Below are positions 14,691 to 16,450 of a stretch of 64,000 bases of DNA, one piece after another. Below the pieces are notes generated by a model. The model was not told where the DNA came from. It searched no databases and saw only the letters and a program-made list of their open reading frames with translations. The stretch's first letter is position 1; every line of letters begins with the position of its first letter. The DNA is taken from NCBI GenBank assembly GCA_025056455.1, contig JANWVY010000002.1:358737-422736 (forward strand), read 5' to 3'. A program made the position numbers and the translations under genes. This DNA comes from Bryobacteraceae bacterium (lineage in GTDB: Bacteria > Acidobacteriota > Terriglobia > Bryobacterales > Bryobacteraceae).

Positions 14691-15929
14691 ATGCGCATCC
14701 CCTTGTTTGTTTCCGCTGGACTCCTCGTTTTTGCGGTACCGTCCGTGGCCCCCGAGGAAGGACTTCAGTGGCTAGATAATTACCAAGAGGCGCTGCGGGT
14801 CGCGCGCCAGACGGGGAAACCAATTTTCCTCGAATACCGCTGCGAGCCTTGAACGGCGGGGAGAGTCTTCGACGCACAGGTTGTGCTGTCGCCGCGTTCC
14901 TCGCCACGAGGCCAACTGCTTTCGCAGTATGTGACGGTCCGGATCACCCGTCTCGACGACGTGGATCTTGGTCTGTTCGATTATGACCGTTACAACACGC
15001 TGTACTTCTTTTTGATGAACGCCGACGAACAAATTTACATGCGCTATGGCGGCCGCGATGCGCAATCGCCAGATACTTACTTGAACTTGGCCAGCTTGGA
15101 GCTGGCGCTCAAAAAGGGGCTCGAGCTGCACGAGCAGTACAAGGCCGGTAAGCTGCCTCGCACAGAGCGGCCAAAACCAGTTTGGGCGCGAGACTTTCCT
15201 TTGCTGGTCGAACGCACGTTTGCGCGCGGGCAATGCGTGGAGTGCCACCTCGTGGGCGATTTTCAAAACCAGCACCGGGAGCGCGACGGAACGCTCGATA
15301 AAATCACCCATCTGTTCCGGTCTCCAGACATCAAAACATTGGGCATTTTCCTCGATGTTCCCAAGGGCCTGGTGGTACAAGAGGCGAAAGACGCGGCCGC
15401 CCAGGCCGGCATGCGAGCCGGTGATGAAATCACCCACTGGAATGGCGTGCGCGTCTACACCTTTGGCGATTTGCAGTACCAGCACGACAAAGTTCCGCGC
15501 ACAGCAAAAACAGTTCCTGTCGCCGTGGAGCGAAATGGCAAGCGAGTGGATCTCACAATTTCGTTGCCCGTCCGTTGGTGGCTCACCGAGATTCGCTACC
15601 GCCAGTGGACCGTGGACCCGCGCGTCTACTTTGACTCTCGCCCACTTACCGAGGAGGAAAAGAAAGCGCATGGCTTCAAACCCGGCGGCTTTGCCAGCGA
15701 GGTGACGCACGTGGACGCCTTGGCGGAAATGATGAAAAGTCACCAGCTCAAGGTTGGAGATCTCATCTACGCCGTCGACGGCGTTGAAACAGACCCCGAT
15801 GCTCACACCGCCGACCTCTATATCCGCCTGCGCAAAACGGCTGGCGACAGCGTTACCCTGAAGGTGTTGCGCGGGCAAGAAAAATTGGAAATGCCGCTTA
15901 AAACCTTCCGGATGAGTTTTCGCAAATGA
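14691..15929 (+). CDS. Trx-fold / double-PDZ selenoprotein with in-frame TGA (Sec54)
   Basis: Predicted exported selenoprotein of 412 residues. ATG 14691 opens a signal peptide (residues 1-20). A thioredoxin-like segment follows, GKPIFLEYRCEP-U-TAGRVFDAQ, in which TGA 14850-14852 is codon 54 and makes C51xxU54. Trx-fold relatives carry CxxC here. The frame is open on both sides: 53 codons before the TGA and 358 after it. Residues 182-186 read CVECH (CxxCH, a possible c-type haem or metal site). Two PDZ-like domains follow, about 210-298 and 322-410. A SECIS-like hairpin lies just after the TGA. The DsbD-alpha-like gene downstream overlaps by 4 bases (ATGA). I recall a RefSeq family named Trx7/PDZ domain-containing (seleno)protein that fits this architecture. 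The upstream ribosome site is weak. The alternatives are a nonsense mutation or a truncated TTG 14883 start; both fit less well. Confidence 0.85.
14853..14897 (+). promoter_or_regulatory. Candidate bacterial SECIS element
   Basis: Directly after TGA 14850-14852 the RNA can fold into a hairpin. CGAC (14870-14873) pairs with GUCG (14888-14891), and GCACA (14874-14878) with UGUGC (14882-14886). The loop is GGU (14879-14881) with one bulged U at 14887. A possible outer pairing is CGG 14854-14856 with CCG 14892-14894. The loop begins 29 bases after the first base of the TGA. Bacterial SECIS elements are known to lie just 3' of the UGA inside the coding region and to carry a GU in the apical loop, as in E. 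coli fdhF. Both conditions are met. SelB binding is inferred. Confidence 0.75.
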
Positions 15930-16450
15930 AACGTAAGCTTTGCATCACGATCTTCGTGGTGGCCACCACGCTAGCGGCCTCCGATTGGAGCCAGCCGGTA
16001 GAGGTGCGTCAAGATACCGCGTTGTGCGTCACCTACCGCGCTCGCCTTGCCGGTGACTATTTGATTGTCGAAGCGACTCATGAGCCCGGCTGGCATACCA
16101 ACGCCATGGACAACGACAAACGGGCTGCCGAGAAGCTCGCTGGGCGCAAAGCGCTCGGCGTGGATAAGCCAACGCAGATCACCTCCAACGATCTGGAGAT
16201 CAGCGGTCCCTGGCGGCAAACGCCCCCCAAGGATTTCTCCAAGCCCGACTTGCTTTGGTACACCTGGGGCTTTGACGCGAAGGCGCAGTTTGTGGCGAAA
16301 GTGAAGTCGCCAAAAGCAGGACAAGTGACCGTGCGCGGGCAAGCTTGCTCGGAATCGAGTTGTCGGAACGTTGAGGTGACGCTCGATGTTCCCCAGCCCC
16401 AGTCTCCTAGTGCGCCCCCAAATCTAGACGGACTCGAGCTGGTTCGCTAG
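15926..16450 (+). CDS. Stand-alone DsbD-alpha-like thiol-redox protein
   Basis: Exported protein of 174 residues with a signal peptide (about 1-19, VVATTLAAS) and a single domain resembling the N-terminal alpha domain of DsbD/ScsB. It has the late GQACSESSC motif with C141 and C146, which fits the redox-active Cys pair of that immunoglobulin-like domain. The DsbD membrane beta and thioredoxin gamma domains are absent. The start overlaps the stop of the selenoprotein gene (ATGA), so the two are co-translated. It is therefore a likely electron donor, acceptor or substrate carrier for the Trx-fold selenoprotein. The partner assignment is inference from the operon. Confidence 0.75.
   Translation: MKRKLCITIFVVATTLAASDWSQPVEVRQDTALCVTYRARLAGDYLIVEATHEPGWHTNAMDNDKRAAEKLAGRKALGVDKPTQITSNDLEISGPWRQTPPKDFSKPDLLWYTWGFDAKAQFVAKVKSPKAGQVTVRGQACSESSCRNVEVTLDVPQPQSPSAPPNLDGLELVR

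Follow-up and report, generated by a model that had tools for sequence, protein, structure and literature searches.

The gene at 14691-15929 in a 64,000-nt window of DNA from a Bryobacteraceae bacterium (the window is the whole stretch that was analysed, and all coordinates are positions within it) is probably best explained as encoding an exported selenoprotein of the family NF041199, in which selenocysteine (Sec) is inserted at UGA54 and which takes part in a DsbD-like relay with a partner protein. Decoding of codon 54 as Sec is almost certain, the selenocysteine genes and an RNA hairpin being read from the sequence and the decoding deduced from them; the DsbD-like pairing of selenoprotein and partner is somewhat favoured. 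The mechanism that would fit best is that of an exported selenol/thiol reductase working together with its neighbour. The Trx7/PDZ selenoprotein family has been catalogued before, and what is added here is the RNA signal, the true position of Sec in the active site, a neighbouring partner gene and a motif that may bind haem.

Two sets of homologues underlie the counts. The clade of the window gene consists of 69 loci, i.e., 67 found by a contig scan with two peptide patterns, the window locus (L027) and L028; the locus titles are mostly Acidobacteriota, with one Planctomycetales (L102), one Myxococcota (L114), and two Acidimicrobiia (L058 and L084). The name Planctomycetota stands here for the phylum to which G543, the source genome of L102 (Planctomycetales), belongs, and 61 Planctomycetota copies were taken from 59 loci (L146-L204), 20 of them returned by a survey and 39 chosen by hand (20 without and 19 with TGA). 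As these 39 regions were picked by hand, the proportions of Sec and Cys among the 61 copies are not frequencies. L146, a member of the window's clade, is part of the column counts and of the tree of the 61 copies and is left out of the folding, hairpin and stem-pair comparisons, and L205, which duplicates L146, is left out of the counts. The features to which the argument refers are the following.

14691-15929, forward strand: gene for the Trx7/PDZ selenoprotein; reading TGA as Sec gives 412 residues, from the translation and the NF041199 match
14691-14753, forward strand: hydrophobic N-terminus, residues 1 to about 21, a likely signal peptide judged from the sequence by eye
14766-14948, forward strand: Thioredoxin_7 match, residues 26-86 (PF13899, E 2.8e-6)
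14841-14843, forward strand: Cys51, an additional Cys ahead of codon 54; encoded as Cys in 69/69 clade loci and, among 61 Planctomycetota copies, as Cys in 39 and Sec in 22
14850-14852, forward strand: TGA codon 54, predicted Sec where the Trx CxxC has its nucleophilic Cys, the first of the two, from homologue columns and alignment to DsbD gamma
14859-14861, forward strand: Gly57, where a canonical CxxC has its second Cys; of the 69 clade loci, 68 have Gly here and one has Ala
14870-14891, forward strand: bacterial SECIS-like hairpin, UGA+20 to UGA+41, GACGCAC/GUGC(U)GUC with apical AGGUU, shared by the clade
15234-15248, forward strand: C182-V-E-C-H186, a CxxCH motif of haem-c type, conserved in the clade and in Planctomycetota
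15366-15566, forward strand: first PDZ domain, residues 226-292 (PF13180)
15735-15869, forward strand: second PDZ domain, residues 349-393 (PF00595)
15927-15929, forward strand: terminal TGA, overlapping the ATG of the next gene
15926-16450, forward strand: gene of the DsbD-alpha-like partner, which stands alone, with CxxxxC at residues 141/146 and a start ATG that overlaps the selenoprotein stop (ATGA)

The frame is interrupted solely by the TGA at codon 54, and translation with TGA as U places 53 codons upstream and 358 downstream of U54, just as an earlier note on this DNA had described; the thioredoxin-like region and the two C-terminal PDZ domains named there are likewise recovered as Pfam matches. 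In the list of open reading frames made with translation table 11 the gene appears only as a 348-residue frame starting at GTG 14883, from which the N-terminus and the active site are lost. Standard annotation of this gene would give a truncated product devoid of its active site. Translation most likely does end at the terminal TGA, since the column after residue 412 holds a stop codon in 49 of 62 aligned homologues (TGA 44, TAG 4, TAA 1; the other 13 run on) and since it overlaps the next ATG. The N-terminus suggests that the protein is exported.

Codon 54 is TGA in all 69 clade loci. A profile survey found the gene in 31 of 150 host-family genomes, each of the 31 matches having one TGA (the match in G373 has a TAG besides its TGA), and among 396 genomes of the host phylum there were three strong matches, the window included, all with TGA and one also with TAG. 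Weak matches without TGA were present in 26 other genomes among the 396; in seven of nine such loci inspected the longest frame reads, judged by eye, as what is presumably a whole DsbD, with the weak relative read as its gamma domain, and in the remaining two the longest frame differs from the matched frame. Relatives were found in 99 of 294 Planctomycetota genomes and carry zero, one, or two TGAs. Column 54 of the 61 Planctomycetota copies holds U in 40, C in 21, and nothing else, and columns 51 and 54 taken together are U/U in 22, C/C in 21, C/U in 18 and never U/C. A quick tree of these 61 rows (L146 in, other clade rows not in) requires at least four changes at column 54 and at least 14 at column 51. 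Alignment of homologues at the TGA column, which the earlier note had put forward as a check, returns only Sec or Cys in the copies examined. Neither of the two outcomes that the note had named as refuting its reading, homologues with a stop or an unrelated residue at this column or a genome lacking the selenocysteine machinery, was encountered. It could be argued that the TGA really terminates the protein or has arisen by a sequencing error and that the gene is in two pieces or a pseudogene, as would agree with the downstream frame from GTG 14883 obtained with table 11. This explanation is nevertheless highly improbable given the TGA at every clade locus and in every host-family survey match, the exchange of Sec and Cys at column 54, a hairpin that is both frozen and covarying, and the presence of the Sec machinery in the genome; the reading of the in-frame TGA as Sec, already made in the earlier note, is in agreement with all of these.

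Two TGAs three codons apart (UxxU) are found in the Planctomycetota loci L147, L148, L150, L154-L157, L160, L161, L163, L164, L185, L189, and L196-L204. Further in-frame stops occur in two clade loci, at codon 169 in L094 and at codon 192 in L116, and may reflect decay or sequencing error, and no single frame is open to the end in L118 and L028.

The earlier note had placed the TGA at the second Cys of a thioredoxin CxxC, and in this respect it has to be corrected. In an alignment with six DsbD gamma domains, the motif CTNC has its leading, nucleophilic Cys opposite U54 and its trailing Cys opposite Gly57; Cys51 therefore precedes the nucleophile as an extra Cys. The all-Cys Planctomycetota copies read C-x-P-C-x-x-C in 20 of 21 cases, and position 57 is Cys in 55 of the 61 copies, L146 of the window's clade being among the six without it.

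The host genome, which is 98.94% complete, contains all four of the genes selA, selB, selC (tRNA-Sec), and selD that the earlier note had proposed to look for. The tRNA-Sec scores 79.3 bits and has the anticodon TCA (ARAGORN), and selB, selA, and selD score 373.1, 501.5, and 373.1 bits, respectively, all above their cut-offs; a second match to the tRNA-Sec model, at 47 bits, is a tRNA-Ser according to ARAGORN. The SelD of the same genome (L023, about 1489-2502, G000:C11) is a candidate selenoprotein itself, having an in-frame TGA in the motif GUASK, which we take to be the known Sec site of SelD. SelB was above cut-off in 10 of 11 checked genomes of clade loci. For L114, titled Myxococcota, the best SelB match is below cut-off (170.4 bits, in a 428-residue frame), which may point to misbinning or to a diverged factor. 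Among host-family genomes selB is found in 29 of the 31 that bear the gene vs. 129 of 150 overall, and as it is this common, its co-occurrence with the gene is uninformative.

The hairpin lies a short way 3' of the UGA and has an apical G, as looked for in a SECIS hairpin, and it covers codons 60-67. At codons 61-67 the mean fraction of the most frequent codon is 0.93 vs. 0.60 at 73 other conserved degenerate positions taken outside codons 52-72; the most uniform of these 73 is Cys51, with 0.97. The outermost pair is formed by the third bases of Phe60 and Ser67, both synonymous, and is UA in 41, CG in 19, CU in 4 and CA in 2 of the 66 clade loci surveyed (three of the 69, with long gaps, were dropped). 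Among 370 codon pairs at the same spacing none exceeds it in pairing excess, and tree-aware sign tests gave a median p of 0.031 for C at 60 against G at 67 and 0.008 for C at 60 against anything other than A at 67. One of the two peptide patterns with which the 67 scanned loci were fetched is FDAQVVLS, which selects the peptide and not its codons, and L028, which was found by profile instead of the peptide pattern, has the same hairpin region. In view of the hairpin conservation at its codons, the invariant peptide DAQVVL may in part be an imprint of the RNA, besides any constraint on the protein.

In Planctomycetota a stem of at least five pairs is present at the same place in 37 of 39 Sec forms vs. 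5 of 21 Cys forms (p 5e-9, by a position-specific score devised after the hairpin had been seen). Pair 25-35 is CG in all 58 distinct clade sequences; in 37 distinct Planctomycetota Sec forms it is mostly GC, with AU and CG in addition, and paired in 34, and among 20 distinct Cys forms it is paired in none. Stem pairs thus differ between clades in compensating ways. Some are formed less often, e.g., pair 22-38 in 26 of the 37 distinct Sec forms. Ordinary folding energy of the clade hairpin region is not exceptional; the z-scores for the 48 bases after the TGA are weak, with a median of -0.13 in the clade and, in Planctomycetota, of -0.89 and -0.5 for Sec forms and -0.17 for Cys forms (p 0.015). 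An Rfam scan for SECIS gave zero matches. The family may be regarded as a natural experiment on Sec decoding, with compensating hairpins in the Sec forms that are mostly absent from the Cys forms.

The 412-residue translation matches NF041199, "Trx7/PDZ domain-containing (seleno)protein", at 436.6 bits against a cut-off of 300 and over profile positions 2-389 of 390, and eight out of eight Planctomycetota copies with zero to two TGAs that were scanned against NCBIfam also exceed this cut-off. Among 297 genomes drawn from the host phylum only one passes it, so that the family is patchy there. A 2026 review lists Trx7/PDZ as NF041199 with CxxU and names the 2008 GOS study as the source, the GOS study itself (PLoS Genet 2008) describes under the name "putative secreted serine protease MucD" a selenoprotein known from 2 Sec and 12 Cys sequences and accompanied by a SECIS-like element, a GPB paper of 2021 describes the MucD selenoprotein as CxxC/U fused with PDZ, and a 2022 review describes a PDZ protein with Thioredoxin_7 and CxxU, citing its reference 64, presumably the 2008 study. 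Going by these listings, the GOS MucD selenoprotein would be of the same family as NF041199. The window protein resembles NF041199 in its whole-length match above cut-off, its Trx7 and PDZ content and the listed CxxU, and no result obtained here speaks against its membership; the listed CxxU could imply Sec at the second Cys, whereas U54 aligns with the first. With GOS MucD it shares CxxC/U together with PDZ, but the protease label does not fit it. According to this older label the protein would be a peptidase or HtrA-like, and the PDZ domains do match HtrA/DegP families; these matches are, however, restricted to the PDZ part and far below their cut-offs, and no trypsin-type domain is found among the Pfam matches with E up to 1, which leaves a peptidase at a probability close to nil. 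A serine protease proper is rejected, no catalytic domain having been found with Pfam. A description of a partner gene or of haem in the Trx7/PDZ family was not found in literature listings or in the passages covered from PMC2398784, PMC13188914, PMC9402790, PMC9312934, PMC4807772, PMC1794560, and PMC12013277.

A homologue of the partner is present near the selenoprotein gene in 63 of 67 clade loci, lying no more than 150 bases from the aligned end of the selenoprotein in 50, upstream in 7, and elsewhere in 6. In 31 of the 63 its start, picked by a rule made for this analysis, overlaps the selenoprotein stop. At five full-length clade loci (L076, L079, L090, L101, and L120) the homologue begins only farther downstream, at a distance of 436-2663 bases. 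Neither 17 kb at L113 nor 3.6 kb at L028 showed a partner, nor was there a match at L087, with 470 bases beyond the gene, or at L073 and L123, which are cut at or near the gene end. When all frames of at least 90 residues in the loci were clustered, the partner cluster comprised 59 loci; the next clusters outside the gene (24 and 21 loci) look, by strand and position, antisense to the partner or to the gene end, and a cluster of 17 loci has scattered positions. In our judgement no second conserved neighbour is to be taken from these clusters. PF11412 (DsbD_N) is matched by 38 of 40 scanned partners at E 0.1 or better, with a best value of 5.6e-7, and the partner in the window itself (15926-16450) falls below PF11412 at E 0.1. 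The motif Q[AV]CxxxxC is present in all 62 partners of at least 130 residues. A PDB profile search with the partner gave one match, at E 1.4, that was taken as chance.

Beside 58 Planctomycetota loci, mostly covered to 1.5-2.5 kb per side, no partner was found; it is present solely at L146/L205, the clade member. The clade that lacks Cys57 is thus the clade that has the partner, but a single event in one clade may account for both the loss and the gain. Outside this clade, five Planctomycetota copies are also without Cys57, and the partner was not found beside them.

The preferred reading of a Sec-dependent relay can be set out as follows. With the hairpin at UGA+20 to +41 as the signal, SelB and the tRNA-Sec with anticodon TCA would place Sec at UGA54. 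In a CxxC of Thioredoxin_7/DsbD-gamma-like type, in which Gly has replaced the second Cys, Sec54 would then be the nucleophile at the first position, and would attack disulfide (or oxidised) substrates in the cell envelope. A selenenylsulfide between Sec54 and Cys51 may form, with Cys51 as the resolving partner, and electrons would be exchanged with the CxxxxC of the DsbD-alpha-like partner, replacing the lost resolving Cys (Cys57). The pair would do the work of a DsbD reduced to its gamma and alpha parts, with the membrane part missing, and the two PDZ domains might serve as tethers that bind the substrate or the peptide tail of a partner. In DsbD a single protein comprises the alpha, the transmembrane beta, and the gamma domain. 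The window system resembles it in a Trx domain like DsbD gamma and in a DsbD_N-like partner; unlike DsbD it consists of two separate proteins, the alpha-like part being encoded by its own gene, with Sec at the gamma nucleophile and with CxxCH and PDZ added. The membrane domain of DsbD is not among the Pfam matches of either the selenoprotein or the partner with E up to 1.

The CxxCH motif is one for attachment of haem c. It reads C182-[VI]-E-C-H186 in all 68 clade loci covering that region, and CxxCH is present in all 61 Planctomycetota copies, never with Sec although columns 51 and 54 exchange. A CxxCH on a putatively exported protein, export being suggested by the N-terminus, is what would be looked for in a c-type cytochrome, and the host genome has three matches above cut-off to the cytochrome-c assembly family PF01578. 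It is conceivable from these observations that the selenoprotein carries covalent haem c at C182-V-E-C-H186 and that the chemistry of Sec54 is coupled to one-electron transfer rather than being a pure thiol relay. On the other hand a fully conserved second ligand was not found. His147 is invariant in a 40-row clade alignment and is His in 55 of 61 Planctomycetota copies, and with D, Y, F or a gap in the remaining six it is not supported as a universal second haem ligand. The only apparent cytochrome among the Pfam and NCBIfam matches is MamP, and that match covers PDZ residues only. Haem is a plausible cofactor as judged from the motif, its attachment is something that we would sooner bet against than for, and a coupling of Sec54 to one-electron transfer can be held only tentatively. 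A split, Se-dependent DsbD-like system that combines all of these, i.e., a gamma-like half with Sec nucleophile and covalent haem c and an alpha-like partner that replaces the resolving Cys, is unlikely; if true, it would couple two-electron selenol/disulfide chemistry to one-electron transfer in the cell envelope. Through the partner gene and the CxxCH motif, a function for an uncharacterised selenoprotein family can be tested directly.

The likeness to MamP, a magnetosome protein that also combines PDZ and CxxCH and is not known to have a Trx domain, consists further of matches to NF040965 (E 9.5e-8) and to PDB chain 4jj0 (E 3.2e-5), each of them within the PDZ region; it differs in that the match is confined to PDZ and reaches 32 bits against a cut-off of 300. 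A weak match in the Trx region to NF041382, the VPGUxxT thioredoxin-like (seleno)protein type 1, was seen with E 0.01 for the window and 2.2e-6 for L161, but the scores of 15.2 and 27.2 bits, respectively, compare with a cut-off of 350. A plasmid collection gave no match. At L028 (1000-2136, minus strand, G206) the Trx part is open with its TGA and the PDZ part lies in a different frame, and another frame there has an EF-hand-like reading. EF-hand-like sequence was also seen as a C-terminal extension of the DsbD_N-like partners at L107 (5258-6577) and L116 (9350-10540), both titled Thermoanaerobaculia.
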